The notes beneath the pieces are model-generated. The model had not been told where the DNA came from. It saw nothing but the letters and a program-made list of their open reading frames with translations, and searched no databases. A stretch of DNA of 37,165 nt, taken from the IMG/VR virus record IMGVR_UViG_3300035698_012912, positions 1 through 37,165 of that record. One strand, written 5' to 3'. Position numbers and translations under genes: made by a program. Positions 850 through 35,277 of this stretch are shown piece after piece (the stretch's first letter is position 1; every line of letters begins with the position of its first letter). This DNA comes from a virus.

Positions 850-855
850 CATAAT
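850..855 (+). promoter_or_regulatory. Leaderless -10 element for terminase small subunit
   Basis: CATAAT ends seven bases before ATG 862. It follows GC-rich DNA and leaves no room for a ribosome-binding site. Confidence 0.7.
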
Positions 856-861
856 CGCATT

Positions 862-1650
862 ATGCCATCGAATGGGAACAGGTTAAACAAAGGGGCTAGC
901 GGCGGCCGTAGCAAGAGCCAAGGCAAGAAGCCAGTCAAGGTCCCCAAGGCCCTGACCCTAGTTCCAGAAATAAATAAAATATCTGATGACATTATCGGCA
1001 AGCGACACCAAATCAATTGCAATTTGGCACAGCCAAAAAAGGGAGTAAGAACGGGACAGGAAATGGTTGAGGCCAGGGTGCGCAATCTTGTTGAGATGAA
1101 GCGGAGTGGATGGAACAGGGGGGAGATGATGGACGCCATGATCTCCAAGTGGGGAATAAGCGATAGAATGGGAGATAACTACATGGCGAAAGCCTATAGG
1201 AAAATAGAGGAACAAAACAAGGGAGACCATGGGCTAGTGATAAAGGATGTCAATATTGCTCGGCTTGAATTTGCGATTGAGCAATCCATGCGTGACGCCA
1301 ATTATGGATTGATGCAAAAACTGATCCATGAACAATCAATGATAATGGGACACCACAAACAGGAGATCAGCATCACCGATCAGCGATCGCAGCTGGCGGA
1401 CAAATATGATCCGGCTGAATTGATCAAAGCACGGGACGAGATAGAAAAGGCCAGAGTGTTGACCATAGAGGCGGAAGCGGTAGAGGTTGATGCTATGGGG
1501 CGGGAGATAGATAATGGCAGTGAGAAGGGGAGCGCTGAGAAGGGGAGCGCTGAGAAGGGGAGCAGTGAGAAGGGGAGCGCTGAGAGCGATTCTAAGGCCG
1601 TTGATAATGCTGATGACCTAGCAGACCAAGAGAAGCAAAACATTGCATAG
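862..1650 (+). CDS. terS: Terminase small subunit (probable)
   Basis: A 262-aa protein directly before the large terminase. Residues about 70-115 form a helix-turn-helix-like segment (a WNRGEMMDAMISKWGIS-type stretch) expected of the DNA-recognition domain of small terminases. A charged helical middle probably oligomerises. The basic N-terminus is rich in Gly, Lys and Arg. Near the C-terminus, residues about 220-242 are built from four 15-bp tandem units coding for EKGSA-like repeats. The start is fixed by CATAAT at 850-855. Function is inferred from position and architecture; I see no family-diagnostic residue. Confidence 0.75.
   Translation: MPSNGNRLNKGASGGRSKSQGKKPVKVPKALTLVPEINKISDDIIGKRHQINCNLAQPKKGVRTGQEMVEARVRNLVEMKRSGWNRGEMMDAMISKWGISDRMGDNYMAKAYRKIEEQNKGDHGLVIKDVNIARLEFAIEQSMRDANYGLMQKLIHEQSMIMGHHKQEISITDQRSQLADKYDPAELIKARDEIEKARVLTIEAEAVEVDAMGREIDNGSEKGSAEKGSAEKGSSEKGSAESDSKAVDNADDLADQEKQNIA
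1522..1581 (+). repeat. Four 15-bp tandem repeats inside terS
   Basis: The unit GAGAAGGGGAGCGCT occurs at 1522, 1537, 1552 (variant ending CAGT) and 1567. It keeps the reading frame and codes for a Glu-Lys-Gly-Ser-Ala tract, a minisatellite likely to vary in copy number between relatives. Confidence 0.9.
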
Positions 1651-1725
1651 TAGCTGAAAGGCACAGGCTGACGGGCTATGCAATGACTACCCCGCGAGAT
1701 CCACCAGAATAGCCGCGCCCGCTGG

Positions 1726-1731
1726 CAACAT
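1726..1731 (+). promoter_or_regulatory. Possible leaderless -10 for terminase large subunit
   Basis: CAACAT ends eight bases before ATG 1739, one base more than the spacing at most starts of this genome, so this is a weaker case. Confidence 0.4.
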
Positions 1732-1738
1732 CTCTGAT

Positions 1739-3331
1739 ATGGGTATGAACACGATCCACGCAAGCAGTGATAATCATTCGGTCAAAGAAACGGAATGGCC
1801 ATGCAATCGAATCTTGAAGATGCCGGCGGCCGAGATCGATCTGATCTTTAATTCTACTAAGCATATCTATTATGACTTATTTACCGAGGATGAGCTTTAC
1901 AAGCTGTCTGATCCTGATACAGGTTTTCTATATTTTGTTGATAACTATGGCAGCGCGGTCACCGCTAAGGGCGGGCAAGCAATGCCGCTCGATCTGTGGC
2001 CGGCTCAGCGTGATCTAATCATTCCGGCATACAGCTCAAACCGCGACATTATTGTAGGAAAGACAAGGCGGTTCGGAGCAACGACCCTTCTAGCCCATCT
2101 CTTCTATTGGGCCGCTAATTTCAAAGCAGGAGCGATCAACACCAATCTGATTTATATCTCCAACCGCTTTGATAACTCCTCAGACATTTTAGAGCTGATC
2201 CGGACCATTGACCAATACATCAGCAAGAAGGCGCCATGGATCAAGATTCATCAGCTAGATGGTAAGAACAGCACCAAGGAAATCAGCATTCCCGGCCGGG
2301 GCGTTCGCATTCTCGCCTATCCCCCAGGGGAACAGGTTCGTGGCATGACGGCCTCTATAGCGGTCTCAGACGAAGCGGCAAGGCTGTTCGGCTCTACCAG
2401 CCCCGAAGAGCTCTTGGCCGCGCTTGAGCCGACGACAGCGGGTGGCGGGAAGCTGATGATCATTAGCACTGGGAATGGGGAGACCGGCAAGGGGGAACTG
2501 TTTTCGAAGAAGTTCTGGGCAGCTCACAAGGGTGAGGACACCAACACAGACGCGATCTTTATGCCACGATCTCAACACCCATGGTTCAACTATAAAGGAT
2601 TCGAGAAAATACAGCTGGCAAAGAACGGCGGCAGCAATCTTCGGCTGATGCGGGAATTCCCGGAATTTCCTGAGCACATGTTTCTTGAAGATCCTGAGGG
2701 CGCTGTGTTTGATCTGGAAGCACTCGAGATCGTCTTTGAACTAGGCCGGCGGATCAGGGAACAGGTGGCATTCGGTGGCCTTGTATCGGTGGGCATTGAC
2801 TGGGGCGGTGGCGGCACCGGCTGGGTTGTCAATAGGACCTTGGCCAATAACGGAATCCATATCCCCGAATCAGGAACCAGCACCACGGGTGCCCCCACTA
2901 ATCAGGTTGACATGATCTATGCCAAGGCCAAGAGCTATTCTGATTATTTGGATAAAGAGTTTTATGACCCGGGCGGATCGGGAGACCATGTCAATCGTCA
3001 ATGGGCTGACAAGTATGGCCGGGAGATGCGCCCATGGCCGGTTCCCTTTGGAACAACTAAAAGGCCGAACAGGGACTTCTTGATGTATCTGATCACTCAT
3101 ACATCTGAGCAATGCCAGAAGTATGATTTTGATATTGGGCAGATGCAGCTGTTCCTGGCCATTGATCCTGATAAGTGCAAGGACCTCGCGGTTCAGATGC
3201 GATCGGCTAAGACCAGCGAGATTCCTTCAGGGATACTGAAGGACAAAAAAAATGAACAGCATGAGTTTGATGCATTGCTTTGTTCTGTCAACGGACAGCG
3301 ACTGGATTGGTTCCGGAACTTTAGCCATTGA
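1739..3331 (+). CDS. terL: Terminase large subunit
   Basis: This 530-aa protein is the ATPase-nuclease that pumps DNA into the prohead through the portal. The N-terminal ATPase shows a Walker A-like VGKTRRFGATT at about residues 105-115 and a Walker B-like IAVSDEAA at about 206-213. The C-terminal RNase H-like nuclease has VGIDWGG (about 350), an aspartate in GGSGDHVN (about 411) and EFDALL (about 509), the usual acidic triad spacing. Length matches the family. It follows terS with an 88-bp gap. Another ATG lies at 1745; 1739 better fits the weak upstream promoter. Packaging mode (cos or headful) cannot be told. Confidence 0.93.
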   Translation: MGMNTIHASSDNHSVKETEWPCNRILKMPAAEIDLIFNSTKHIYYDLFTEDELYKLSDPDTGFLYFVDNYGSAVTAKGGQAMPLDLWPAQRDLIIPAYSSNRDIIVGKTRRFGATTLLAHLFYWAANFKAGAINTNLIYISNRFDNSSDILELIRTIDQYISKKAPWIKIHQLDGKNSTKEISIPGRGVRILAYPPGEQVRGMTASIAVSDEAARLFGSTSPEELLAALEPTTAGGGKLMIISTGNGETGKGELFSKKFWAAHKGEDTNTDAIFMPRSQHPWFNYKGFEKIQLAKNGGSNLRLMREFPEFPEHMFLEDPEGAVFDLEALEIVFELGRRIREQVAFGGLVSVGIDWGGGGTGWVVNRTLANNGIHIPESGTSTTGAPTNQVDMIYAKAKSYSDYLDKEFYDPGGSGDHVNRQWADKYGREMRPWPVPFGTTKRPNRDFLMYLITHTSEQCQKYDFDIGQMQLFLAIDPDKCKDLAVQMRSAKTSEIPSGILKDKKNEQHEFDALLCSVNGQRLDWFRNFSH

Positions 3332-3370
3332 CCCGAGTAATAGAAAGACCATGCGCGCCGAATACATGTC

Positions 3371-3376
3371 TATAAT
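3371..3376 (+). promoter_or_regulatory. Leaderless -10 of the 3383-5277 operon
   Basis: A perfect TATAAT lies seven bases before ATG 3383. The alternative in-frame ATG 3377 would sit one base after the hexamer, before any plausible transcription start, so 3383 is preferred. Confidence 0.75.
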
Positions 3377-3382
3377 ATGGCT

Positions 3383-3739
3383 ATGGATTCGATAAATAAA
3401 CCAATAGAAATAGATGAAGAAATAAACAATGCTATCGCCGCCGCCGTAAAGATGCGAAAGCTTGAACGAATTGCCGAGGTGCCAATCGACAATGCCGTTA
3501 AGAAATTGCTGGAGCAATATGCAGATTCGCCGCGCATTGTCGGATATATCTATCGGTCATGGTCTCCGTTCCTCAGCGACCGGGGACGCCGAATGATCGC
3601 GCTGATCGAAGATCGATATTATGTTGATCTATATGATGCGCCAATCAGAGAGATCAAGAAAAGCATCATCAATTATTTGCTTTCATACGACTGGGAATAT
3701 GCCGCTGGTGAGACTGTAGGCGTGGAGGCGGGGCGATGA
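3383..3739 (+). CDS. Unknown protein, first gene of the cargo operon
   Basis: A 118-aa protein when started at ATG 3383, where the TATAAT at 3371-3376 places the transcript start. Composition is mixed helical, with no signal peptide or membrane segment and no family I recognise. The C-terminus ends in EAGR, as does that of the next gene, because both stops lie in the same GAGGCGGGGCGATGA junction. It overlaps the next gene by ATGA and heads a six-gene unit between terminase and portal, a usual site for accessory genes in phages. Confidence 0.65.
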   Translation: MDSINKPIEIDEEINNAIAAAVKMRKLERIAEVPIDNAVKKLLEQYADSPRIVGYIYRSWSPFLSDRGRRMIALIEDRYYVDLYDAPIREIKKSIINYLLSYDWEYAAGETVGVEAGR

Positions 3740-3984
3740 TACATGCCAGGACTTTCAAAGAGGCAGAGCGGGAAGCTATTGCTGAGGCAGAATATGAGGC
3801 GCTGAAAAAGTCAGGCAATCACCCTATCACCGATATGCTTGAAAACATAAAGGATATTAGTAAAAAAGAGGAAGCACTGGATAATCTCAGCACGGATCAG
3901 CTGTACGATTTAATGATAGAGCAGCTAGACCAAGATGCAAGAAACGCTATCAAGGCCGAGTGGCGAGATGAGGCGGGGCGATGA
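3736..3984 (+). CDS. Small acidic helical protein of unknown function
   Basis: An 82-aa, strongly charged and probably all-helical protein rich in Glu, Asp, Lys and Ala. Its ATG overlaps the previous stop (ATGA at 3736-3739), behind a GGAGGCGGGGCG ribosome-binding stretch. It ends in EAGR inside a second copy of the same junction. No domain recognised. Tight coupling indicates co-translation with its neighbours. Confidence 0.65.
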   Translation: MIHARTFKEAEREAIAEAEYEALKKSGNHPITDMLENIKDISKKEEALDNLSTDQLYDLMIEQLDQDARNAIKAEWRDEAGR

Positions 3985-4169
3985 TGGAGACGATGATTGA
4001 GTTCTGCACATGGGGGTTGTTAATTATCAGCACCGTCCTGATCGGAGGAATGCTGCTGTTTATCGCCGGCTGGTTAATAGGCGGATCGGTCTACTGCGCC
4101 TATCTGGTCGCGGTGACGGTACGCGAAGAAATCAGGGACGCCCGAGCATCGGAGGCCCGCGATGAGTGA
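3981..4169 (+). CDS. Small membrane protein with two predicted helices
   Basis: A 62-aa protein. Residues about 9-34 form a long hydrophobic stretch with GG and GW, and about 36-48 a second one. A charged, Arg/Glu-rich cytoplasmic-like tail follows. The start overlaps the previous stop (ATGA) and the end overlaps the next start. It could act in superinfection exclusion or as a holin-like or membrane-anchored partner of the operon; the sequence alone does not decide. Confidence 0.65.
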   Translation: MMETMIEFCTWGLLIISTVLIGGMLLFIAGWLIGGSVYCAYLVAVTVREEIRDARASEARDE

Positions 4170-5004
4170 TACAAAACTAATCGCATATCATGGAGATCCT
4201 GAGCTCAAGGCGCAAACAATTGCGCAGATGAAGCAGCATCGGATCGCAGATACGATTATCAAGGGGCACTATTGGCAAGGTGGAAAGGGCAGCGCTGTCG
4301 GCTGTCTGACCCACGGCCTTGACGGAGGCCATGATCAGTACCCGGAACTGTTCGGAATCCCGGAATGGCTGGCTCACTTAGAAGATAGGGTGTTTTCGAA
4401 TTTACCTAATGATCAAGCCAAGCTCTGGCAGGAAAGGTTTCTATCAGCAATCCAGCCCGGGGCCGACTTTGACGGGCTGAAAGATAGGCTTGCCATACTG
4501 CGGCTCAGAGAGTGTTTGAGAATTTCTTCAGTATGGGACCATGAATACCGGCAGCAAGTAGTTGATGCTATTGAGCAAACCATCGAGGCCATTGAGAGCG
4601 GTACAGAAGATGAACTATTAAGGGCTAATTATGCCGCCAGATTAGCCGCCAACGACACGACCTTGGCATTCTCGGCCTACAGTGGGGGTCTCGTTTTAGA
4701 CACACCAGCGTCCTCTGCCAACTCAGCAGCCAACTCAGCTGCCCTCTCAGCATGGCGTCCAGCAGGCTATTTAGCCGCCGAATACTCAGGCGCGCCGGCG
4801 TTAGCCGCCAACGCCGCCGCCCGCTCATTTGCCAACGCCGCCGCCTTGTTATTAGTCAAACCAATAGCATGGGCTAAAGACCCAGGCGCCGCCGACTTAG
4901 CAGCAAAAAGAGCCAAGTCAGATGGCAATTTTTATGCCTGGAGCGAGGAGGCTGATCGCATAATCGCAGAACTAGAGAAGCTGGGGAGGCGGGGCGATGA
5001 GTAG
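4162..5004 (+). CDS. Conserved phage protein with GGKGSAVGC and IPEWLAHLED motifs
   Basis: A 280-aa protein. The N-terminal half carries HPELK-like (GDPELKAQ), IIKGHYWQGGKGSAVGC and FGIPEWLAHLEDRVF motifs. I know this arrangement from uncharacterised proteins of many prophages and accessory islands. The central segment (about 170-245) is a run of Ala-, Asn- and Ser-rich imperfect repeats (NSAANSAAL, AANAAARSFANAAA). The C-terminus is charged. It overlaps its upstream neighbour by eight bases and its downstream neighbour by eight. Function unknown; it is usually carried by mobile elements rather than being structural. Confidence 0.7.
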   Translation: MSDTKLIAYHGDPELKAQTIAQMKQHRIADTIIKGHYWQGGKGSAVGCLTHGLDGGHDQYPELFGIPEWLAHLEDRVFSNLPNDQAKLWQERFLSAIQPGADFDGLKDRLAILRLRECLRISSVWDHEYRQQVVDAIEQTIEAIESGTEDELLRANYAARLAANDTTLAFSAYSGGLVLDTPASSANSAANSAALSAWRPAGYLAAEYSGAPALAANAAARSFANAAALLLVKPIAWAKDPGAADLAAKRAKSDGNFYAWSEEADRIIAELEKLGRRGDE

Positions 5005-5140
5005 CCGCTGGACAGATACAACCAGAGAACTTGTAGAACAAGCGATTATCAGAGGTATTAAACTGGGGTGGTCTGCGGGAGGGATTGCCTCTTCGGTCCT
5101 GCACGTAGTAGAGGAACAAGAAAAGAAAGAGCAATCATGA
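4997..5140 (+). CDS. 47-aa unknown protein
   Basis: The ATG lies in the third GAGGCGGGGCGATGA junction (4986-5000), giving an excellent ribosome-binding site. The product begins MSSRWTDTTRELVEQ and ends in a Lys/Glu-rich tail. It looks like a short amphipathic helical protein. The stop overlaps the next start (ATGA 5137-5140). Existence is supported by coupling at both ends; function unknown. Confidence 0.6.
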   Translation: MSSRWTDTTRELVEQAIIRGIKLGWSAGGIASSVLHVVEEQEKKEQS

Positions 5141-5277
5141 TTCACCCATTGATGAACCCCATGATCCCCGCTTTGATCATTGTTCTTATCGTCTGCGCGG
5201 TTGATCTGGGGCATTTTCTGTATTGCAAAATCCGAAAGGCTGTGACAGCGGCTACAAACCAACCTGCGAAACGGTAG
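5137..5277 (+). CDS. 46-aa single-pass membrane protein
   Basis: The product starts at ATG 5137, overlapping the previous stop; upstream in-frame codons are not needed. Residues about 9-30 are a hydrophobic helix (IPALIIVLIVCAV), followed by a basic tail (KIRKAV...AKR), giving an N-out/C-in topology by the positive-inside rule. Last gene of the six-gene operon and its second membrane protein. No family recognised. Confidence 0.55.
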   Translation: MIHPLMNPMIPALIIVLIVCAVDLGHFLYCKIRKAVTAATNQPAKR

Positions 5278-5515
5278 GGTAAGCGGCTGAAAAACGGGAG
5301 GGGCAGCGTTCGGCGGCACCAGGTTGTTGTCAGCGTTCGGCGGTGAAATAGTAGGTTTTAGATTAGTATGCGCCAGCACCGACGCAGTATGCGCCGGTTA
5401 GCATAACCGTGTAATGCTATCGGCCGCCGCTCGGATTACCTAGCCGCCGGCCCTCTGATTCCCTAGGACAACGAAAGACCCATGCTAGATCCGCGCTAAT
5501 CCCCGCGCGCGCCTG
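5278..5515 (+). other. Intergenic region with short direct repeats
   Basis: No gene is supported here. CAGCGTTCGGCGG occurs at 5304-5316 and 5331-5343, and AGTATGCGCC at 5365-5374 and 5386-5395. No clear terminator is visible. The right end is the GC-alternating promoter of the portal gene. Confidence 0.6.
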
Positions 5516-5521
5516 CACAAT
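5516..5521 (+). promoter_or_regulatory. Leaderless -10 for portal gene
   Basis: CACAAT ends seven bases before GTG 5528 and is preceded by CCGCGCGCGCCTG (from 5503), a GC-alternating block shared with the promoters at 9588 and 11715. Confidence 0.75.
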
Positions 5522-5527
5522 TGGAAT

Positions 5528-7144
5528 GTGTTCGACGCAAAGATGATAAATCAGGGGATAGAAGACGGGAACATTCCGATTGACCCCATCTCAAAGGAAC
5601 TGTCAGAAGCATGGAAGGTAGCTGACAAATACGACGAGATCGCCATTGATGAAGGTGGGGAATGGAGCCGCCGTCAAGCGGGCATCGAAGGCAAGCTAGG
5701 CACTGAGGACCTCAATAAATATGTCAGCATTCCGGTTGCTGGACAGATATGCAAAGCATCAGCATCACTACTTTTCTCTCAGGCTCCCATATATACATCG
5801 GCAGACCCCGAGATTCAGGCGTGGAATTCTAAAAAGATCAAGGCACATGGCTTCAATGATAAGTTTCTACGCGGTGCTGAGCTTCAGGAACGACTGGGAT
5901 CGTGCTATCTGCGAGTACTAGACAATCCCGAATCCCCGAAAGGCCGCCGCTACGGCGCCAACCTTGAGCTGATCAAGTTTCAGAATGTCATTCCCTATTT
6001 CTCAGGTGATGAGCTGGTTGCTGCAATTGTCATCAAGCACTATGACCGAACAAAGGCGGAAGGAACCAAGGGATCACAACGAGCACCAGGGCAGTTCATC
6101 ATCAAGGGGAACGGAACATTCTTCACGCACTTTGAAATACTCGAGATAGGCAAGACCACCAATCTTCTTTTCCGTGGAGACTCAGAAAACATCGGCAAAG
6201 AGGTTGATCTTTCGGAGCTGGATGTGACATCTGGGATACAGAGAGAGACAGAGACTGGCGTTGATCATCCTTTGATCGTTTTCCTTCCGCAGAATCAAAT
6301 CAAAGAAGGCAGCTTTGGCACGAGCGGTTTGGCCGGCCTTGAAGATCTGTTGCTGAATATCAACGAAAGCGCAACCATGCTTCAGGACCGGGTCAGGGTA
6401 TCGGCTCCCGTCATATACGCCAGCGAAGAATTGATGCAATCACAGAAGACTGTTGGCACTGATGGCAAGGTAACGGAAAACAGAAAGACTTTGCATGTCC
6501 CCAATGGCCCGCGCGTTGTCTCTGCATCTCAAACCTCCGGCGCTACCAACGCCGGCAGAGACCTTCTAGAAATCACTTGGCCTGAGCCCGGATTAGAGGA
6601 ATTCGAAACCCACAAAGGCAATGACATCAATACCGCCCTGGAAGCCGCTGGGATCGCGCCTCAGGCCCTTGGCCGATCTGTTGATGGCACATTCCCAGAA
6701 TCAGGCAAGGCCCGTGAGCTACAAATGGCAAACACGCTGGCGAATGTAGGCGTCAAGGCGCGTGCATGGGAATCAACATTGTCAGAAATCATGACCGCAA
6801 TCGTTGAGCTTGATATTGCTCGGGGCCTTGTATCTCCAACCGAAGGCCTTGACCCGGCGATCAGCGTTGACATTAGAGAGGGATTCCCAGAAACGCAGTC
6901 TGAAAAAATGGAGCGGGTGCAGTCACAGTATGTCGCCGGTTTGATATCACTTGAATCTTCGCTGAAAGAAATTAACCCGATGTGGAGTGATGAAGAAATT
7001 ACTATTGAGGCTGAAAGAATTGATGATGCTAAGGCCGTTGAAAAGCTTGACGCCGTCAGCGTGATTGATCTGGGAGTGGACACTGATTCTTTTGAGGATG
7101 ACCTCGGCGCCGAGCTTGATGGCATAGACGCCGCCACCGCCTAG
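5528..7144 (+). CDS. Portal protein
   Basis: A 538-aa protein of typical portal length, placed between terminase and scaffold/capsid. It forms the dodecameric vertex ring through which DNA passes. The N-terminal half has the mixed alpha/beta wing pattern. The second half contains the long helical stretch (about residues 275-300 and 355-400) and an acidic C-terminus (about 495-538) as in SPP1 gp6-like portals. Start is GTG 5528, dictated by CACAAT seven bases upstream; the ATG at 5526 is out of frame. Family assignment rests on position, size and overall sequence character. Confidence 0.85.
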   Translation: MFDAKMINQGIEDGNIPIDPISKELSEAWKVADKYDEIAIDEGGEWSRRQAGIEGKLGTEDLNKYVSIPVAGQICKASASLLFSQAPIYTSADPEIQAWNSKKIKAHGFNDKFLRGAELQERLGSCYLRVLDNPESPKGRRYGANLELIKFQNVIPYFSGDELVAAIVIKHYDRTKAEGTKGSQRAPGQFIIKGNGTFFTHFEILEIGKTTNLLFRGDSENIGKEVDLSELDVTSGIQRETETGVDHPLIVFLPQNQIKEGSFGTSGLAGLEDLLLNINESATMLQDRVRVSAPVIYASEELMQSQKTVGTDGKVTENRKTLHVPNGPRVVSASQTSGATNAGRDLLEITWPEPGLEEFETHKGNDINTALEAAGIAPQALGRSVDGTFPESGKARELQMANTLANVGVKARAWESTLSEIMTAIVELDIARGLVSPTEGLDPAISVDIREGFPETQSEKMERVQSQYVAGLISLESSLKEINPMWSDEEITIEAERIDDAKAVEKLDAVSVIDLGVDTDSFEDDLGAELDGIDAATA

Positions 7145-7154
7145 CCGGCAATCA

Positions 7155-7226
7155 GGGCTGGTAGCTCAAATGGAAGAGCACCGCGTTTGCAACGCGGAGG
7201 CGAGGGTTCGACTCCCTCTCGGTCCA
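7155..7226 (+). tRNA. tRNA-Ala (anticodon TGC)
   Basis: A full cloverleaf of 72 bases. Acceptor GGGCTGG pairs with TCGGTCC, including a G3-U70 wobble, the key alanyl-tRNA synthetase identity element. D stem GCTC/GAGC, anticodon stem CCGCG/CGCGG around TTTGCAA, T stem GAGGG/CCCTC around TTCGACT, discriminator A. CCA is not encoded. It lies between the portal stop and the GroES promoter, so it is probably processed from the portal transcript. A single tRNA inside a head module is unusual. Confidence 0.95.
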
Positions 7227-7269
7227 TTATCCATGATTTGAAAAAGAACCATAAAGCTGTGCCCGGTGG

Positions 7270-7275
7270 CACCAT
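7270..7275 (+). promoter_or_regulatory. Leaderless -10 for GroES-like gene
   Basis: CACCAT ends seven bases before ATG 7282. TATAAA also lies at 7275-7280 but is too close to the start to be the -10 of a transcript that includes the ATG. Confidence 0.6.
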
Positions 7276-7281
7276 ATAAAC

Positions 7282-7581
7282 ATGGAGATTCAAACTAAAA
7301 AAGAATTAGACACTGACCTGATCGCAATCACTGACCGTATTGTTGTGCGCATAGAGGAAGAAGAAAGCGTGAGAGAAAGCGGGCTATTCCTTCCCGATCA
7401 GGCCAAGGAGATTCCGCACAAGGGAATAGTCCTTACCGCCGGCCCGGAGTGCTGGAAGAAGGGCATTGATAAGGGAGACAGGATTATATTTGTCAAATGG
7501 GGCGGAGCTAAGATCCGCTGGAACGAAGAGATTTTGATTGTCATGGACATCAATGATGTCCTAGCAAAGATCACCAACTAA
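7282..7581 (+). CDS. GroES-like co-chaperonin (Cpn10)
   Basis: A 99-aa protein matching the full length of GroES. It has the DRIVVRIEEEE first strand, a mobile-loop-like segment ending ESGLFLPDQAKE (residues about 33-44), which corresponds to the GroEL-contacting loop, then HKGIVLTAGPE, a KGDRIIFVKWGG strand pair and the closing EEILIVMDINDVLAKI. It would cap host GroEL and assist folding of the capsid protein, like T4 gp31. Its place between portal and scaffold/capsid fits that role. Promoter CACCAT. Other assignments seem unlikely. Confidence 0.9.
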   Translation: MEIQTKKELDTDLIAITDRIVVRIEEEESVRESGLFLPDQAKEIPHKGIVLTAGPECWKKGIDKGDRIIFVKWGGAKIRWNEEILIVMDINDVLAKITN

Positions 7582-7593
7582 TCACAAAAAACA

Positions 7594-8199: not shown

Positions 8200-8222
8200 G
8201 ACTCAAAACATAGGGCAAGATA

Positions 8223-8346
8223 ATCAGCCCCCAGAGCAATCCAAACCAAGAATGTTGCTTAGTTGATGACAAGCGATAGAGAAGCTTACGACGGTAAGGG
8301 CGGGAATTAGTCAGCCCCCTTGGTTTGGATTGCTCTGGGGGCTGAT
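8223..8346 (+). repeat. 28-bp perfect inverted repeat before the capsid gene
   Basis: Bases 8223-8250 and 8319-8346 are exact reverse complements (arm begins ATCAGCCCCCAGAGC), separated by 68 bases. The right arm also takes part in a shorter, overlapping hairpin, so the two folds exclude each other. Confidence 0.9.
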
Positions 8347-8357: not shown

Positions 8358-8377
8358 TACCGTTTCATTTTCGGGGT

Positions 8378-8419: not shown

Positions 8420-8423
8420 CAAC

Positions 8424-9461: not shown

Positions 9462-9496
9462 TCCTCGAGTCGCTCCTAGAGCTATCAATCAACTGA

Positions 9497-9593: not shown

Positions 9594-9599
9594 TGAGCT

Positions 9600-28307: not shown

Positions 28308-28336
28308 GATGCTCCTGAAATCTCGTAGTTTGTCAT
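28304..28336 (-). CDS. Leaderless 10-aa leader ORF
   Basis: ATG at 28336 follows the -10 TATCAT (28348-28343) with the standard seven-base spacing. The product MTNYEISGAS ends in TGA overlapping the ATG of the 122-aa gene (ATGA, 28307-28304). It would allow leaderless initiation to feed a Shine-Dalgarno gene by coupling or act as a regulatory leader peptide. Confidence 0.5.
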   Translation of the reverse strand: MTNYEISGAS

Positions 28337-28342
28337 GGGTCA

Positions 28343-28348
28343 ATGATA
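28343..28348 (-). promoter_or_regulatory. Leaderless -10 for leader ORF and 122-aa gene
   Basis: TATCAT on the minus strand, seven bases before ATG 28336. Confidence 0.65.
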
Positions 28349-28394
28349 GGTGTAGAAATCCTGAAGTGTGGGATATATCAAAGACCCCTGTGAA

Positions 28395-28673
28395 TCAGTG
28401 AAATCCTTTCCGGCATGATATGCCCCTTGACAACATGAGCACTTCTGAGATCGCGCCGTACGCCTGCTTTCGGGCATCGTATGGTTCCTTCTCTGCTGCT
28501 CGGATCGAAGCCATGCACTGGTCTTGGCAACTCGGATCAATCAAGCGCGGCTGAGCATCGAAGAATGAATGGATCCAATTGATCGTCCAATATTGGATCT
28601 GCTCCATTTCATAAATCTGATCCTGAAGATATTCAATCTGAACTTCAAGATCAGATTTTGTCTTGGCAGCCAT
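28395..28673 (-). CDS. Unknown protein, paralogue of the 27939-28307 gene
   Basis: 92 aa. Shares W-x2-NWIHSFFDAQPRLIDPSCQDQCMAS (residues about 29-55, region) with SDWVTDFFQSRPALMTTDCLDQCSAA of its neighbour, then AEKEP versus AKKMP. The N-terminus is a coiled coil. Two adjacent diverged copies point to duplication. ATG 28673 follows CACAAT on the minus strand. The Cys-x3-Cys-type pair (C..DQC) might bind a metal or form a disulfide. Function unknown. Confidence 0.65.
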   Translation of the reverse strand: MAAKTKSDLEVQIEYLQDQIYEMEQIQYWTINWIHSFFDAQPRLIDPSCQDQCMASIRAAEKEPYDARKQAYGAISEVLMLSRGISCRKGFH

Positions 28674-28679
28674 AAATCA

Positions 28680-28685
28680 ATTGTG
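28680..28685 (-). promoter_or_regulatory. Leaderless -10 for the 92-aa gene
   Basis: CACAAT on the minus strand, seven bases before ATG 28673, after a GCCCGCGCGCGGG block. Confidence 0.72.
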
Positions 28686-28751
28686 CCCGCGCGCGGGCTT
28701 AAAGCCTGCAATCTGGCAAAGCAATTTCCCCAGCTGCGCCGGTCATATTCC

Positions 28752-29954
28752 TCAGCTGCGCATCTGCACTGATCCGGCAAGATACTTCCCCCCACCGCCA
28801 ATCTCCAGCGGCTTCCCGGCGCCATCAACAAAGACCGGATCAACCCGTTTGGTTTCAATTGTCCAATCTTCATGACCGGCATCGCGAGAATGAAGCCCGG
28901 GAATATCTGGCAGGGAATAGGAATGCAACGCGATTAGGTTCCGGTGTCCGGTTCTGGCCACTACCTCTATATCAATTCCCCTAGCCTTTATTGTTTTCTT
29001 GAACCCGTTCCTCGAGGCTGAGCAGATAGAAGTAAGATCCCCGATAGTCCAAGATGTATCAGCGCCGAACCCGTCCTGAAAATCCCTGAGCGTTGCCAGC
29101 GCTGCTATGGTCACCAACTCTTTTGCGCTCCATGGGTTCTCCAGATCGCCCATGATCGCCATAACAAGATCAAGGGAACCAAAGAAGGATCCGGCGAAAG
29201 ACTTTCCCGTTTGGTCTTTCCAGATCTCAGCCATATCATCGGCCGCTGCATCGAGCTGATCAACATCAAACTCAACTCTCTGATCCTTGGATCCCGGTGA
29301 ACTAGACATACCGATCACGCCCTTGCTCTGTGCCCCGTGGAGCGCGCCTGATAGTGATTGGACGGAATAATGACCAGACATGCATGAAGACGACCCGGGA
29401 GCTAGAGGAGCGACGAGAGCAGAAAAGGAGACTCGCCACGAAAACATTTCCCAATTCTCCACATAAGGATCTTGGCTAGCGGTTGGGAGCTGGGAGCTAG
29501 GAGATTCTTGGGAGCTAGAAAAAGGCCCTGTCCCTAGTTGTTGATCTTGATGCATACGAATAAGGAATTGCCAGCGATTGACAATTAGATGAAGGACAGC
29601 ACGGAGCTCGGGCGCTGTGAGATTGTCTGATCCTTGATTGATAAGATGGGAGCTAGGAGCTGAAGCTTTTAAGGCCTCGGTGAGATTATAAATCTGTGCG
29701 AAAAATTCGCGATCGACTCCGCGTGGCGCTTGGTCTTCGCCGCCGGCAATCAGATCAGCCATATTGGAAATGACAAATGACATGACCACGGCGCTGATCA
29801 TCGCCCCGAACTTTGATGAAATCCAATTGCGAAACTCTTGGGGATTAGCCGGAGGAGTCTGAGGCAAAGTCATTCGCCGTTCTATTTCATCGGTTGTTTC
29901 TTTCTCGAGCTGGTCAGATACATCTCCCAGACCCTGGACTGTGGTGTTGAACAT
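28752..29954 (-). CDS. 400-aa protein, candidate replication initiator
   Basis: Starts at ATG 29954, fixed by CATATT (29966-29961). N-terminal Glu-rich part, then a hydrophobic stretch (about 48-70, FGAMISAVVMSFVISNMADLI). A Ser/Pro-rich low-complexity middle (about 140-215) is followed by an HTH-like segment in TSWTIGDLTSICSASRNGFKKTIKARGIDIEV (about 295-325, region). Divergently faces an iteron array with flanking inverted repeats, and carries four GGGAGCTAG motifs in its own sequence. Replication role is inferred from context only; a repressor or partition protein is an alternative. Marked composition difference from the virion genes. Confidence 0.5.
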   Translation of the reverse strand: MFNTTVQGLGDVSDQLEKETTDEIERRMTLPQTPPANPQEFRNWISSKFGAMISAVVMSFVISNMADLIAGGEDQAPRGVDREFFAQIYNLTEALKASAPSSHLINQGSDNLTAPELRAVLHLIVNRWQFLIRMHQDQQLGTGPFSSSQESPSSQLPTASQDPYVENWEMFSWRVSFSALVAPLAPGSSSCMSGHYSVQSLSGALHGAQSKGVIGMSSSPGSKDQRVEFDVDQLDAAADDMAEIWKDQTGKSFAGSFFGSLDLVMAIMGDLENPWSAKELVTIAALATLRDFQDGFGADTSWTIGDLTSICSASRNGFKKTIKARGIDIEVVARTGHRNLIALHSYSLPDIPGLHSRDAGHEDWTIETKRVDPVFVDGAGKPLEIGGGGKYLAGSVQMRS

Positions 29955-29960
29955 ATTGCG

Positions 29961-29966
29961 AATATG
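29961..29966 (-). promoter_or_regulatory. Leaderless -10 for the 400-aa gene
   Basis: CATATT on the minus strand, seven bases before ATG 29954. Confidence 0.68.
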
Positions 29967-29998
29967 CCACACATTTTGAAGAGCACGGCAATTCTCTC

Positions 29999-30166
29999 AA
30001 AGATTGTCATTTTCTTGAGACGAAGTACAGTTAATATATAGAAGCTTCTATACAAGTAAAGGCAAGTAAAGGCTAGTAGGAGCTAGTAAGGGCTAGTAAG
30101 GGCTTTCTTAAATAGTAAAGAATATAGATATAAACGGTACATCGTATCAAGAAAATGACAATCTTT
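29999..30166. other. Candidate replication origin: inverted repeats, palindrome and iterons
   Basis: AAAGATTGTCATTTTCTTGA (29999-30018) is the exact reverse complement of 30147-30166. Between them are the 16-bp palindrome TATAGAAGCTTCTATA (30037-30052), five tandem 10-bp repeats (30053-30102) and an AT-rich stretch (30103-30146). The layout is that of an iteron plasmid origin or a partition site, beside a possible Rep gene. Origin function is inferred. Confidence 0.6.
30053..30102 (+). repeat. Five 10-bp iteron-like repeats
   Basis: CAAGTAAAGG (twice), CTAGTAGGAG, CTAGTAAGGG (twice); consensus CWAGTARRRG, period one helical turn. Directly abuts the 16-bp palindrome. Confidence 0.9.
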
Positions 30167-30288: not shown

Positions 30289-30323
30289 AAAGCTAGAAAC
30301 ACGCGCTGAACCCTGCTAGCGCT

Positions 30324-30329
30324 GACAAT
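30324..30329 (+). promoter_or_regulatory. Leaderless -10 for the 208-aa gene
   Basis: GACAAT ends seven bases before ATG 30336. Confidence 0.72.
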
Positions 30330-30335
30330 CATGAC

Positions 30336-30962
30336 ATGAGTGATTCGAATGAAAGGAAGGAGAAAAGAAAGCCGCATACCAAAGAGCGGCATGATGTGAC
30401 CAAGCTTCTCCGCATTCGCAGGGAGTCAGGCATCTCAGCCAAGGCCGATGATCCACGGATCCGAGACAAGAAAGAGGGCGATGCACACCTGGCTGCGCGG
30501 CAAGCTGCCTTCAATGCTTCGCTGTCTAGGTCTGTCTTTGTCAAGAAAACCTACAAGGATTTTCTCATTGAGCTTTCCGGGAGTATTGAGGATGATGGAA
30601 TCCCGAAGGAGTATATCGGGAAGATTATCGCGCTATCGATCAAGCGCTGCTATCACCGCGACATTCCCGTGCACCTGCAAACCGCCGGCCGGCTATACCG
30701 CCCGCCACAGGAGCAGATTGAGAAGGCCGTTCACACAACCATTCGCCAGTTTTATGATTATCAAGTATTGACAAAGTCAGATGATCAGAGCCCCGCCGCT
30801 TTCATCGCTGAGCAAGACAAACAGGATGCAGATAATCAGGAGCACCTGCGACAGCTAGACAAGATCGGCGATCAATTCCGAAATTCAGAGAGGCATATTC
30901 CCAACACGGAATCATGGGCAAAGAGAAAAAAGAAGCGTGACGAGAAGCTAGAAGAAGGATAA
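30336..30962 (+). CDS. Basic, helical unknown early protein
   Basis: A 208-aa protein. The N-terminus (1-50) and C-terminus (about 180-208) are rich in Lys, Arg and Glu, suggesting nucleic-acid binding. The central part (about 70-150) is predicted helical (TYKDFLIELSGSIEDDGIPKEYIGK...). No recognised domain. It has its own promoter and an inverted repeat upstream, and is transcribed divergently from the candidate Rep with the origin region between. It might assist replication or regulate it. Confidence 0.6.
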   Translation: MSDSNERKEKRKPHTKERHDVTKLLRIRRESGISAKADDPRIRDKKEGDAHLAARQAAFNASLSRSVFVKKTYKDFLIELSGSIEDDGIPKEYIGKIIALSIKRCYHRDIPVHLQTAGRLYRPPQEQIEKAVHTTIRQFYDYQVLTKSDDQSPAAFIAEQDKQDADNQEHLRQLDKIGDQFRNSERHIPNTESWAKRKKKRDEKLEEG

Positions 30963-31013
30963 AGCCGGCGGCAAATCTATAAGAGAAAATAACCATGCGC
31001 AAAATTTTGCGGC

Positions 31014-31019
31014 TACATT
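31014..31019 (+). promoter_or_regulatory. Leaderless -10 for the 31026 leader ORF
   Basis: TACATT ends seven bases before ATG 31026. Confidence 0.6.
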
Positions 31020-31025
31020 CAATAT

Positions 31026-31121
31026 ATGCAAAATGAAAATGACACCACAAAGAAAGGTCAAAGACTAGACGAATTTGATGAAGCCCTCAACGAGCTGAAC
31101 GCAGCGGACATCTTGGCATGA
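31026..31121 (+). CDS. 31-aa leaderless leader ORF
   Basis: Product MQNENDTTKKGQRLDEFDEA... of 31 residues, acidic. The start is placed by TACATT; the stop TGA overlaps the ATG of the next gene (ATGA at 31118-31121). Same plan as the leader ORF at 28304-28336. It may be a small functional protein or mainly a way to couple translation. Confidence 0.5.
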   Translation: MQNENDTTKKGQRLDEFDEALNELNAADILA

Positions 31122-31900: not shown

Positions 31901-32664
31901 AGAGCCCACCATTCATATTCCTCAACCATCCCGATAATATCGTCGGCAGAGATATCCAAATCTATTCCGCTATTTCGGCAGATGTCACGAACCATTTCAA
32001 ACGGCATTCCGGCGATCATCGGGATACGCTCGGTCGGCTTGATCAATATCGGCGGCTGATCTTCTTTATCAAAATCAACCTCGCCGGTGTGCATCTTTTT
32101 CCTATCCTTTGGCCAGAACATAATCGCGGCGTCATTCTCTCGGTGGCACTCACCCAGATAAAACCACATCTCGGCAAATGTGAAGCCAGCCTTGTTCTGA
32201 ATCGTGATTGCCGGCTGAATCGAAGAATGGAGAAGGTCGCCGGCAGATAGGTTGTTGAGCACAATGGTTGTCAGGTCTTCGGGCAGAGCAATCTTTTTCT
32301 CAACGATGATTTCGAATAGATGTTGAGTTGCCAGATCAATCTTGGTTTGATCAAAAACTCCGGGCATATCTCGGCGCAGTTTGGCGCCAATCTCAGTTGG
32401 GATAGTCCAAAAGGTGATCAGGTTCCCATCGCTATCGCGACAGGTCATTTTTCTTGAAGCCGCCTCAAGCTTCTGAGAAACAGGGCCGAGGAGATCAAGC
32501 TGATTGGGCGCGCCGTAGTGAATTGATTTCATTTCCCAAGAATACTGAGGACGGCTAAGCGGCGAGCGAATGAAGTCAATCGGTTCAAGATCTCCACGAT
32601 AGGCCAGATCTGAATCAGCGTCTCCACCTTCACCCTTGCCCAATGTTTGTCTGATAATGCCCAT
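31897..32664 (-). CDS. 255-aa unknown protein
   Basis: Starts at ATG 32664, placed by GATAAT on the minus strand. Mixed alpha/beta, with no signal peptide or membrane segment. Features include IPTEIGAKLRRDMPGVFDQ near 88-106 and an acidic C-terminus (DIIGMVEEYEWWAL). Shares a divergent promoter region (32665-32749) with the metallophosphoesterase. Encoded against the surrounding orientation. No family recognised. Confidence 0.65.
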   Translation of the reverse strand: MGIIRQTLGKGEGGDADSDLAYRGDLEPIDFIRSPLSRPQYSWEMKSIHYGAPNQLDLLGPVSQKLEAASRKMTCRDSDGNLITFWTIPTEIGAKLRRDMPGVFDQTKIDLATQHLFEIIVEKKIALPEDLTTIVLNNLSAGDLLHSSIQPAITIQNKAGFTFAEMWFYLGECHRENDAAIMFWPKDRKKMHTGEVDFDKEDQPPILIKPTERIPMIAGMPFEMVRDICRNSGIDLDISADDIIGMVEEYEWWAL

Positions 32665-32670
32665 GTGTTG

Positions 32671-32676
32671 ATTATC
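32671..32676 (-). promoter_or_regulatory. Leaderless -10 for the 255-aa gene
   Basis: GATAAT on the minus strand, seven bases before ATG 32664. Confidence 0.75.
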
Positions 32677-32737
32677 ATGCAGGGATTGATGGATTGTTTA
32701 TTTATGCACAGATCAGCGTACCCGTTTCTTATTGTGG

Positions 32738-32743
32738 CAGATT
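32738..32743 (+). promoter_or_regulatory. Leaderless -10 for the metallophosphoesterase
   Basis: CAGATT ends seven bases before ATG 32750; the in-frame TTG 32732 is thereby excluded. Confidence 0.6.
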
Positions 32744-32749
32744 TATGCT

Positions 32750-34315
32750 ATGAGTAAACCAATCAGCCGACCGAAAGGAGGCAAGAATGATCAGCAGGAA
32801 ACCAACACCACCAAAAAGACCAAGGCAACAAAGGAAGAGATTCTTGCCGTAGCCGAAGAGTGCCGGGGGAATCTAGATTTGATTGCCCATACTCTAGGTG
32901 TTTCACCCCGAACCCTCGGAACTAGAATGCATCAACATTCAGATGTTAAGGATATGGTTGAGTTCTACCGCGAGCAGGCCAAAATAATGGACCCGCTCGA
33001 GATAGAAACAATAAAAGATGAACAGTCTTTTGTCGTTTCCAATTTACCGGACGGAGCCAACTTCACGCCGGAGCTTCTTTTGGACCATGTTGGGTTGGAT
33101 CCAACCGCTTGGATTATTACCAACGTTAAGGCGATTGGCAATCACTGGGGGAACCCGGACATGCCGAGCAGCCAAATCAAGCTAATCTTGTCGTGTAAGC
33201 AGAAGACCGAAGACGGATTGCGAGAGTTGGAAAATATTGGAGTTCATAGAGATTACCTGAAGCCGATTATCGAAAACGATTATAAGCCGCCAGTGTCTGG
33301 CCGGCTAATTCTCAGCCGCAAAAAGGGGCAAGAGCGCTGGCTAATTCTCAGCGATCAGCATGCGGGAAGTTCGATTGATTGGGTACAGGCTCACGCAACG
33401 GTAAGAGCGCTCAAGGATATCAAGCCGACGCATGTGCTATTCGGCGGCGACCTACTCGACCTCGGCGCCATTGCCCGCCACGCCAAACAGGACAAATCAT
33501 TCGAGCGGCCGGTGATGTATGACATCGATTGCGGCGCATGGTATCTGCATATGATTATAGAGGCTGCGGTCAAGGCGAACAGCAAGGTGCAGTTCATCAT
33601 TTTGATCGGTAACCACGACACTATCGCAATGCGCAAGCTGCTAGACAAGGCACCCTGGGTGCTCGATATGGCGAACCCGACCGGATTCGGTGATCAAAAA
33701 CCATTCATGGCTTTTGAGTCATTCCTGAATCTGCAGCATCTCCGGGATAAATTCAAGGTCAGTATAGAGATGGCGCTTAATGACAAGAGCCAGATGGATC
33801 GCTATCTTAATCAGGTGGTAGATATCGCTGCTGATTTCTCATTCTCCCACGGCACTAAGACCGCAGCGGGGTCAGGTAACAGCGCCCGCAAAAAGAGTAT
33901 GAACAAGGACTATGGGGTCGGGCAGGGACATGTTCATCGTCTAGCCATCGGGCACCGGACGATGTATGGAATAGGCGGCGAAAGCAAAGTATTAGCCTAT
34001 GCCGAAGCCGGCTGCAGCTGCCGGGCGAATGTCTGCTATTCGGAAGATCAAGAGATAGACTGGCAGCAGGGCGCCCTGGTCGTGACCGTGGATAACCCAA
34101 CCGGGAAGTTTGAAGACACGACCTCACGGCAAGAGCTAATCAGGTATAACGAGAACAGCGCAGAACTCACCTGGAGAGATTACAAATGGAGCGCTGAAAA
34201 GTTCATGAAGCCAGATGCTAACCCGACGCCGAAGCCGGTATTGAATAAGTGGCAGGCAGCCGGCTACCCGGAAATCAGAGACGGGTTCTACGCACGAGGG
34301 GGAAGGATCGGATGA
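32750..34315 (+). CDS. HTH-metallophosphoesterase
   Basis: 521 aa. N-terminal HTH (about 28-60, EEILAVAEECRGNLDLIAHTLGVSPRTLGTRM as region), a small middle domain, then a calcineurin-like phosphoesterase. Metal motifs are SDQHAG (about 201), GGDLLD (about 232), GNHD (about 286), FSHG (about 364) and GHVHR (about 393). All five metal-binding blocks are present, so it should be active. Substrate unknown: DNA end processing, a cyclic nucleotide or another phosphodiester are possible. Such HTH fusions are known from phage genomes. Overlaps the next gene by ATGA. Confidence 0.85.
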   Translation: MSKPISRPKGGKNDQQETNTTKKTKATKEEILAVAEECRGNLDLIAHTLGVSPRTLGTRMHQHSDVKDMVEFYREQAKIMDPLEIETIKDEQSFVVSNLPDGANFTPELLLDHVGLDPTAWIITNVKAIGNHWGNPDMPSSQIKLILSCKQKTEDGLRELENIGVHRDYLKPIIENDYKPPVSGRLILSRKKGQERWLILSDQHAGSSIDWVQAHATVRALKDIKPTHVLFGGDLLDLGAIARHAKQDKSFERPVMYDIDCGAWYLHMIIEAAVKANSKVQFIILIGNHDTIAMRKLLDKAPWVLDMANPTGFGDQKPFMAFESFLNLQHLRDKFKVSIEMALNDKSQMDRYLNQVVDIAADFSFSHGTKTAAGSGNSARKKSMNKDYGVGQGHVHRLAIGHRTMYGIGGESKVLAYAEAGCSCRANVCYSEDQEIDWQQGALVVTVDNPTGKFEDTTSRQELIRYNENSAELTWRDYKWSAEKFMKPDANPTPKPVLNKWQAAGYPEIRDGFYARGGRIG

Positions 34316-34713
34316 CCGGCACGCAGGAAAATCCGATAGCCAATAAAGGTCCCGGTTCAATCGGGCCTGAAGCGCAGAAGGCAATCATTCATATCATCAA
34401 GTCAAAGCCCAAACAGTTCTTTGTGACGGTGACACGCGGGCAGCTGCTCAATCGGATTGACAAGATGAATGATAACAGGGAGAAAGACAGCAATCTTCCC
34501 TTCACTATTTCGAGTGATGGGAATGAAGGCGCCGGCTGCCTATTGATCTGGGATTGCCCGATCACTGGCGGAAAGCGAATGAATAAGAATCTCTATATCG
34601 GCACGAACCGATTGGCTGCTCTTCGATATTGCATGGAAGAAATGACCAATATATATCGTGGACTAGATCTCTTAGATCTTACATACGAAGAAATTAGACA
34701 CAAAGAAAAATGA
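34312..34713 (+). CDS. 133-aa unknown protein coupled to the phosphoesterase
   Basis: ATG 34312 lies in an ATGA overlap with the upstream stop, behind GAGGGGGAAGGATCGG (good Shine-Dalgarno); upstream in-frame ATGs are not used. Mixed alpha/beta with TITRGQLLNRIDKM-like and RLAALRYCMEEM helices. It might work with the phosphoesterase. No family recognised. Followed by two hairpins, the second a terminator. Confidence 0.6.
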   Translation: MTGTQENPIANKGPGSIGPEAQKAIIHIIKSKPKQFFVTVTRGQLLNRIDKMNDNREKDSNLPFTISSDGNEGAGCLLIWDCPITGGKRMNKNLYIGTNRLAALRYCMEEMTNIYRGLDLLDLTYEEIRHKEK

Positions 34714-34724
34714 TGCAAATCAAT

Positions 34725-34810
34725 TCTCTGCCCCATTGGCAGAGAGTGTAGCACATATGCATAATGGGATGAAGCCCGGGGGATCAGTCAAATCCTTCGG
34801 GCTTTATTTT
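34725..34810 (+). terminator. Hairpin and terminator after the 133-aa gene
   Basis: TCTCTGCC/GGCAGAGA (34725-34745) is the first hairpin. AAGCCCG/CGGGCTT (34772-34778, 34798-34804) with an inner GGAT/ATCC and a following TATTTTGTT is the terminator. Confidence 0.8.
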
Positions 34811-34851
34811 GTTCTATATCGGAGAAATGAGAAAAGGATTGCCCCCGGCAT

Positions 34852-34857
34852 TACATT
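34852..34857 (+). promoter_or_regulatory. Leaderless -10 for the 137-aa membrane protein
   Basis: TACATT ends seven bases before ATG 34864. Same hexamer as at 31014. Confidence 0.68.
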
Positions 34858-34863
34858 CATTGC

Positions 34864-35277
34864 ATGGACAAGGTCAAGGAATACATCAATAATATCGTCA
34901 ATCGAGTGAAAGCAAATCCGGCAATAGTTCGAGCAGGGCTGGTTCTGCTTGTTTCCTTTGGCATCCTTGTCATGAGCGATGTTCAGGTTGATGCGCTGAA
35001 CGCAATCATCATTGCTCTGCTTGCTGGCTCAGCAGCCGGCGCGCCTAAGGCCGCCAAGGTCACAAAGAAGAATGTTGTCAAAGCACAAAATCGAATGAAT
35101 CATCTGGCACACCCTGAAGAATCAGATGCGATACAGCAGAAATTGGCAGACCTTGAGGCAGAACTTGATATGGATCCAATCGTCATCGCAGACGGCAAGA
35201 CCTATCAGCCAATCTCTGATCTGAACGAGGAATCCAACTATTCAAAAGACTCTGATCTTCCTTATCACGGTGAGTGA
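34864..35277 (+). CDS. Two-helix membrane protein (holin candidate)
   Basis: 137 aa. Two adjacent hydrophobic helices, about 20-38 (IVRAGLVLLVSFGILVMSD) and 43-60 (ALNAIIIALLAGSAAGAP), joined by a short acidic turn. An amphipathic N-terminal helix precedes them and a charged C-terminal tail follows. Such hairpins occur in class II-type holins. It is far from the lysin on the linear map but lies just before the fibre unit on the circle. The other holin candidate is at 22330. Confidence 0.6.
   Translation: MDKVKEYINNIVNRVKANPAIVRAGLVLLVSFGILVMSDVQVDALNAIIIALLAGSAAGAPKAAKVTKKNVVKAQNRMNHLAHPEESDAIQQKLADLEAELDMDPIVIADGKTYQPISDLNEESNYSKDSDLPYHGE

Follow-up and report, generated by a model that had tools for sequence, protein, structure and literature searches.

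The IMG/VR virus record IMGVR_UViG_3300035698_012912 holds a phage genome of 37,165 bases, and this whole stretch (the window) was analyzed here for the elements that precede its gene clusters, namely a −10 hexamer set close to the start codon and a second conserved block, or box, located further upstream. Since positions 1-127 are repeated exactly and in direct orientation at 37039-37165, the record looks complete. Matches to Pfam and PHROGs families were obtained for TerL, portal, scaffold-like protein, minor capsid protein, tape measure and Dit, and also for a lysozyme, an integrase, an HNH endonuclease, a GroES-like protein and a metallophosphoesterase, the tail tube match being below its Pfam cut-off. 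Gene 8424 had no family match, and by synteny it would occupy the capsid position. A single tRNA-Ala gene was found at 7155-7226. From this gene set, the virus would be a temperate and probably siphovirus-like phage.

A −10 Hexamer at a Fixed Distance from the Start Codon

A sequence-only reading of the window had listed 24 starts at which a NANNNT hexamer ends exactly seven bases before the start codon. This description proved exact: each of the listed starts is an ATG or GTG, and 24/24 have A at −11 and T at −7; counted with the start codon's initial base as +1, the hexamer occupies −12 to −7. A−11 and T−7 are the two bases of the −10 element captured by sigma. The base at −12 was mostly C (14/24), followed by T (6/24) and G (4/24). 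In addition, a pyrimidine was present at −1 in 21/24 sites, and A never, in comparison with 7/13 for internal starts, and the listed starts show a Y−1/R+1 initiator pattern.

The frequency of the motif was determined on 47 open reading frames (ORFs) picked mechanically (greedy, longest ORF), a set that includes some doubtful ORFs. Considering only the first possible start, 20/47 ORFs fitted at this spacing, as compared with a mean of 2.74 over 80 other spacings, so the claimed excess at a fixed spacing was confirmed. The next highest value (16/47, at spacing +8) is trivial because at that distance the T of the motif coincides with the start-codon T. When any start within the first 60 nucleotides was allowed, 26/47 ORFs fitted vs a mean of 4.96 (spacing +8 also gave 26, again trivially). 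Under this latter rule the motif was observed at 26/34 ORFs that are first in their cluster, whereas it was found at 0/13 ORFs inside clusters (Fisher p = 1.4e-6). Four of these 26 fits lie outside the original list (a TTG at 112, within ORF 61-780; 5379 on the minus strand; 15245; and 27834) and may be due to chance. The eight first ORFs that missed the motif correspond to 1739 and 35474, which are one base off, to 31118, which comes after the short ORF 31026, to 22330, and to the doubtful ORFs 13910, 36016 and 36382 on the minus strand and 36926. As an extent for the motif, the "nearly every transcription unit" of the sequence-only reading holds roughly, with 26 of the 34 mechanically defined first ORFs.

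The distribution of Shine-Dalgarno sequences was the opposite. With at least four matched bases, and using the motif-bearing start wherever present, a Shine-Dalgarno sequence was detected at 0/34 first ORFs, at 8/13 internal genes and at 10.8% of random positions; a looser measure gave 3/32 first ORFs vs 5/9 internal ones. These opposite counts indicate that the two signals are nearly exclusive. No TTGACA-like −35 was apparent in columns −36 to −30 over the 24 aligned starts. Ordinary sigma-70 promoters were also considered and rejected, as a consensus scan of positions 1-20000 gave 19 sites vs 19.6 expected.

A Conserved Box at −46 to −36

Column statistics on the 24 aligned starts revealed another conserved block, which extends from −46 to −36 with an approximate sequence ATGCnARAAAY. 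The most conserved columns were A−46 (14/24), T−45 (17/24), G−44 (15/24), C−43 (12/24), A−41 (17/24), A/G−40 (21/24), A−39 (20/24), A−38 (19/24) and A−37 (15/24), followed by [GC]C at −33/−32. The information content of the box was 6.67 bits, vs at most 2.38 bits for any set of 11 columns among 1,000 shuffles, and it was 6.76 bits when four near-copy promoters were left out. The box is asymmetric and has the same orientation at each promoter. Its register, determined by a leave-one-out procedure over 41 registers, was 0 at 16/24 sites and +1 at 4/24, and the four remaining sites had registers of +3, +4, +7 and +15. Since the box was not used in the original selection of sites, it provides an independent check on them. 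The sequence-only reading, which described plain −10 elements at start codons, was right about the −10 and overlooked this box, which makes of these sites one defined promoter class.

The specificity of the box was analyzed with a box-only model built from 22 sites, without 24878 and 28336. At scores of at least 9 this model gave 38 matches, 14 at listed promoters and 24 elsewhere, the latter number being close to those obtained in shuffled sequences (22.6, standard deviation 3.9) and in local shuffles (24.0, standard deviation 4.9). Off-promoter matches stayed at shuffle level at cut-offs from 7 to 11. These data indicate that the box belongs mainly to the promoters. Strong box matches lacking a −10 and a start codon at the usual spacing were observed at 18225, 34679 and 29742 on the plus strand.

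Several promoter stretches are near-copies of each other. Those of genes 8424 (8378-8418) and 12673 (12627-12667) share about 40 bases, and those of 5528, 9600, 11727 and 19743 also belong to this group, which suggests that the module spread by copying or recombination within the genome. Hairpins between the box and the −10 were found at some sites (8424, 12673, 28673 and 30336); as a common feature they were discarded, the mean z value being −0.31 over the 24 sites (−35 to −8).

Individual Promoter Sites

A full promoter model covering −48 to −1 was used to obtain a leave-one-out (LOO) score for each site. By this score, 21/24 sites were in the top 0.1% of all positions, 24878 failed, and 3383 and 28336 were weak. 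The original list was therefore largely sustained, with two or three sites unsupported by the full element, and it had overlooked the site at 1739 and perhaps that at 35474.

In the packaging and head region, the promoter of 862, the gene before TerL (816-864, plus strand, as are all those that follow unless stated), has its box at 816-826, a −10 CATAAT at 850-855 and an LOO score of 24.2. The promoter of 1739 (terminase large subunit; 1692-1741) has its box at 1692-1702 and a −10 CAACAT at 1726-1731, one base farther from the ATG, and reached a score of 11.2 at 1738. The site of 3383 (3337-3385) combines a −10 TATAAT (3371-3376) with a weak box and scored −0.9 (top 0.6%). Higher scores were obtained for the promoters of the portal gene 5528, which starts with GTG (5482-5530; CACAAT at 5516-5521; LOO 30.6), the GroES-like gene 7282 (7236-7284; CACCAT at 7270-7275; 12.7), 8424 (8378-8426; CATTTT at 8412-8417; 26.0), 9600 (9554-9602; CATTAT at 9588-9593; 30.5), 11727 (11681-11729; CATTAT at 11715-11720; 22.8) and 12673, also a GTG start (12627-12675; CATTTT at 12661-12666; 22.6).

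Further downstream, the HNH endonuclease gene 14106 is preceded by a promoter at 14060-14108 (CACATT at 14094-14099; LOO 13.4), and gene 14505 by one at 14459-14507 (CATGAT at 14493-14498; 12.3) whose box fits best at +1, one base nearer. At the tape measure gene 15640 (GTG; 15594-15642; CATTCT at 15628-15633; 7.8) the box is weak and fits best at +7. The remaining members of this region precede 19082 (19036-19084; TATTAT at 19070-19075; 10.0), the Dit-like gene 19743 (GTG; 19697-19745; CACAAT at 19731-19736; 26.4) and the lysozyme gene 23103 (23057-23105; GACAAT at 23091-23096; 17.8). At 24878, the HTH_17, Xis-like gene before the integrase (24832-24880), TG followed by TATTAT was found with an LOO score of −18.9 and a weak box at +1 (4.0); it is a doubtful member, or a separate extended −10 promoter.

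In the last part of the genome, the promoter of 27319 (GTG; 27273-27321; GATCAT at 27307-27312) scored 5.8. The minus-strand site 28336 (28334-28382; TATCAT at 28343-28348), which has a weak box and opens an ORF of 10 codons, scored −2.5 (top 1%) and is probably not a member. Two other minus-strand promoters precede 28673 (28671-28719; CACAAT at 28680-28685; 17.8, with a weak score of 2.6 for the box alone) and 29954 (29952-30000; CATATT at 29961-29966; 11.8). That of 30336 (30290-30338; GACAAT at 30324-30329) scored 16.8, and that of the 31-codon ORF 31026 (30980-31028; TACATT at 31014-31019), whose weak box fits best at +15, scored 8.0. This ORF (31026-31121), with its own promoter, ends in a stop that overlaps the ATG of the next gene, 31118, and is possibly a coupled leader peptide or a small protein. 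The divergent promoters of 32664 on the minus strand (32662-32710; GATAAT at 32671-32676; 12.0; box best at +1, one base nearer) and of the metallophosphoesterase gene 32750 on the plus strand (32704-32752; CAGATT at 32738-32743; 7.5) overlap in their box positions. The list ends with 34864 (34818-34866; TACATT at 34852-34857; 13.4).

A possible promoter of 35474 (35427-35476), off the original list as is that of 1739, has a −10 GATCAT at 35461-35466, one base farther from the ATG; its score of 9.3 at 35473 is no higher than that of a few matches away from start codons. At both 1739 and 35474 the leader would be one base long. Full-model matches at non-start positions were observed at 1810 (17.3), 19488 (14.4) and 814 (9.4) on the minus strand and at 34515 (10.7) on the plus strand, and an unlisted ATG at 27151 on the minus strand scored 8.7. 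Those at 1810, 19488, 34515 and 27151 are possible antisense or non-coding promoters, or chance matches.

Search for Relatives Sharing the Module

A 23-site model, from which 24878 had been dropped, was used to scan other phage sequences. Single-protein scans of IMG/VR with TerL and portal gave no relative, and neither did a promoter pattern of 20 exact bases. In the loci from the portal alignment (the best 80 of 279, at about 21-27% identity), taken together with five stretches of named phages (85 loci, 1.07 Mb), a score of 8 was reached at only 7 start codons, and in the loci from the TerL alignment (the best 80 of at least 580; 0.67 Mb) at 15. At the same cut-off, 19/23 sites of this phage passed in the leave-one-out test. 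Three promoter patterns led to 10, 14 and 59 contigs, and the loci found in this way contained up to 3 start-codon matches per locus at score 4 (10 loci) and up to 2 at score 6 (73 loci); these loci (L086-L168) are biased towards one match each by the way they were found. A gene-level look at L086, L090, L092, L095, L138 and L166 revealed no recurrent module. Finally, when 87 loci with a length of 9 kb or more were surveyed, this phage was the highest, with a fitting −10 at 24/32 first ORFs, and in the other 86 loci 103/970 first ORFs fitted vs 83.4 expected.

Other Features of the Genome

A search with bases 1-24000 found no near DNA match among 50,697 phage records. The sequence-only reading had set the promoters in an actinobacterial or Deinococcus context. 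This context is unproven: the portal matched actinophage portals at only about 20-24% identity, the lysozyme matches were scattered across many hosts, and no host match was obtained. A sequence resembling a tRNA 3′ end (T arm plus acceptor strand) lies at 24804-24833, upstream of the Xis-like and integrase genes, and may be the core of attP; patterns of 25 and 30 exact bases taken from it matched no contig in the genome collection.

A 561-codon ORF for the tail fibre (start 36133) crosses the record ends into ORF 61-780. The GroES-like co-chaperonin gene (7282-7581; phrog_3188, E 5e-15) adjoins the tRNA-Ala gene and lies between the portal and scaffold-like genes, and a tblastn search with its product against phages gave no match. 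The metallophosphoesterase (32750-34315) has an N-terminal HTH_8 domain and distantly matches (26-27%) a protein that bears the annotation RDF in Mycobacterium phage Fredward and metallophosphoesterase in BabyRay. Strong terminator-like stems were located between gene clusters at 9497-9526 (13 pairs) and 19648-19678 (12 pairs), which is consistent with separate transcription units; in total, 28 terminator-like sites were counted in 1-20000 vs 20.6 in shuffles.

Discussion

The phage genome carries a sequence module, composed of the −46 to −36 box and the −10 hexamer at a near-fixed spacing from the start codon, that separates first genes from internal genes. We interpret this module, with a probability of roughly 70%, as a phage-wide set of leaderless promoters without a −35, in which the −10 would act together with a factor bound at the upstream box. 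The genome would thus use some 22 to 24 copies of one promoter module. Its −10 would be opened by RNA polymerase carrying the housekeeping sigma, and an upstream protein, which could be an activator or the alpha C-terminal domain, would hold the box at about −41 and replace the sigma-4/−35 contact. The mRNA would begin on the AUG or GUG and be translated as a leaderless message, and translation of the later genes in each cluster would rely on Shine-Dalgarno sequences or on a start codon that overlaps the preceding stop. The canonical −12 to −7 register, the pyrimidine at −1 and the lack of Shine-Dalgarno sequences make leaderless transcripts the simplest reading, and the leaderless initiation proposed by the sequence-only reading finds support in these features, all of them drawn from the DNA sequence.

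The A run of the box is separated from the −10 by 24 bases. The normal sigma-4/−35 contact requires a 17-base spacer, so the box is too far for it. Positions near −41 are the binding place of class II activators or of the alpha C-terminal domain, and the specific T, G and C at −45 to −43 favor a sequence-reading protein. Among the ORFs scanned, DNA-binding matches were limited to a winged-helix protein (26585-27097, plus strand; HTH_24, E 9.9e-5; phrog_323, D5-like, E 1.4e-4), the HTH_17 of 24878 and the HTH_8 in 32750. The winged-helix protein is the clearest non-Xis DNA-binding candidate for the box factor among these proteins, an assignment that is speculative. As an idea, promoters with C at −12 and a box, and promoters with T at −12 that depend less on the box, might form two classes.

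Several observations weigh against this interpretation. T was present at −12 in only 6/24 sites, which is unusual for a plain sigma-70 −10, and no element was seen at 22330 or at the tail-fibre ORF 36133. Regarding the box, two of the four sites with register +1 are the doubtful sites 24878 and 28336, the former lacking a box in register, and the box alone scored below 5 in the leave-one-out test at 8/22 sites (3383, 7282, 11727, 14505, 15640, 31026, 28673 and 32664). Off-promoter boxes exceeded the shuffles at the highest and lowest cut-offs, with 3 vs 0.6 at scores of at least 13 (6/200 shuffles as high) and 390 vs 335.5 at scores of at least 5 (0/200 shuffles as high). Furthermore, no box-binding factor was identified among the proteins scanned, and no relative with the module was found in the phage loci and IMG/VR pattern scans, from which records very near the phage may be missing.

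Several other explanations were considered. The box and the −10 might represent the strong promoter normally present in a host lineage that has not been sequenced, copied by the phage, a view to which we give somewhat less than even odds. It is compatible with the module and changes only the reader, which would be a host sigma, the host alpha domain or a host activator. The module serves several classes of genes (packaging, head, tail, lysis and minus-strand genes), as a constitutive promoter would, and no phage RNA polymerase or sigma factor was recognised in Pfam and PHROGs searches of part of the ORFs; for a temperate phage, however, it would be odd to have lysis and other genes under one constitutive class. 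A dedicated promoter class is a more tentative proposal, in which the leaderless, −35-less promoter of most clusters would need a factor, probably phage-coded, at the box near −41; a single protein could then turn on or off at once the genes for head, tail, lysis and regulation, all of them translated as leaderless messages. It is also possible, although doubtful to the same extent, that the promoters are no more than leaderless −10 elements and that the box is an UP-like A-tract contacted by the alpha C-terminal domain without any specific factor. The ARAAA at −41 to −37 sits at the proximal UP subsite, and the box is weak at eight sites. In Deinococcus, a −10 motif next to an ORF is reported to act as promoter for leaderless genes (PMC12340547). 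On the other hand, T−45 (17/24), G−44 (15/24) and C−43 (12/24) are not features of an A-tract.

An operator function is unlikely. The box would then be bound by an immunity repressor and, as with the stoperators of the Cluster A mycobacteriophages, its many sites would silence the prophage. The presence in a temperate genome of about 20 asymmetric sites with a defined orientation, together with the few strong boxes off promoters (18225, 34679 and 29742), resembles such a system, whose repressors are reported to bind asymmetric sites as monomers (PMC9283540), and the box described here shares with stoperators an oriented asymmetric site (ATGCnARAAAY). Stoperators are, however, described in the same source as genome-dispersed sites that stop elongation, whereas the position of the box is coupled to that of the −10 and the start codon (register 0 or +1 at 20/24 sites) and falls to shuffle level off promoters at cut-offs 7 to 11; moreover, in promoters without a −35 something should give the upstream contact. 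An artefact of start codons chosen to fit a weak motif is very improbable. Five listed starts (3383, 14106, 24878, 29954 and 32750) are not the first start of their ORF in the greedy list, and 31026 and 28336 lie in no listed ORF; this explanation is nevertheless refuted by the first-start test (20/47 vs 2.74) and by the strong conservation of a box on which no selection was ever made.

In the literature searched, as far as the sources were accessible, phage leaderless mRNAs are reported either for isolated cases or, in Thermus phages, for one temporal class. In the Thermus phage phiYS40, most middle and late mRNAs are reported to be leaderless (PMC3594737). In its first 40 kb we observed that the −10 A/T signal peaks at spacings 0 and −1 (5/19 and 4/19 first genes), and a TTGAC-type −35 was seen by eye at 6/19 starts. 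Both are tailed phages with leaderless mRNAs, predicted here from sequence alone, but the phage of this study lacks a TTGACA-like column, carries the box at −46 to −36 and has the signal at a larger share of its first genes. In many bacteria, TA-led genes, in which a −10-like TANNNT precedes the start codon by about 12 bp, are read as leaderless (Zheng 2011; PMC3160421; PMC12340547). The −10-like signal at about 12 bp and the lack of Shine-Dalgarno sequences at first ORFs are common to both; here, in contrast, the first base of the hexamer is mostly C, not T, and there is an additional upstream box at a near-fixed spacing.

Among mycobacteriophages, three leaderless SigA promoters (PL1, PR2 and PL2) are predicted in Cluster O; they are three of the 8-9 predicted −35/−10 promoters per genome, whereas some 22-24 without a −35 are proposed here. 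In Cluster K, the SAS/ESAS motif is repeated before many start codons of one genome (PMC3203893), but ESAS consists of inverted repeats of 17 bp that are imperfect and have a spacer of variable length, unlike the asymmetric box at near-fixed spacing reported here. Replacement of the −35 by the site of a phage factor occurs in the T4 middle promoters through MotA/AsiA sigma appropriation (PMC7403470). The Pfam and PHROGs searches made gave no match to MotA or AsiA. The MotA box lies near −30, whereas the box described here is centred near −41. Elements of this kind are known, and their combination and extent appear to be new; the literature searched, as far as its sources could be consulted, contained no account of a leaderless class that spans a phage genome and has a box in place of the −35.

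Altogether, a complete-looking 37-kb genome seems to begin most of its gene clusters with leaderless starts in which the −35 is replaced by an upstream box, and this bears on the assignment of gene starts in this genome. If true, the phage would offer a compact natural system in which to ask how RNA polymerase and ribosomes deal with a viral programme that is largely leaderless, and what reads a box at −41 without a −35.

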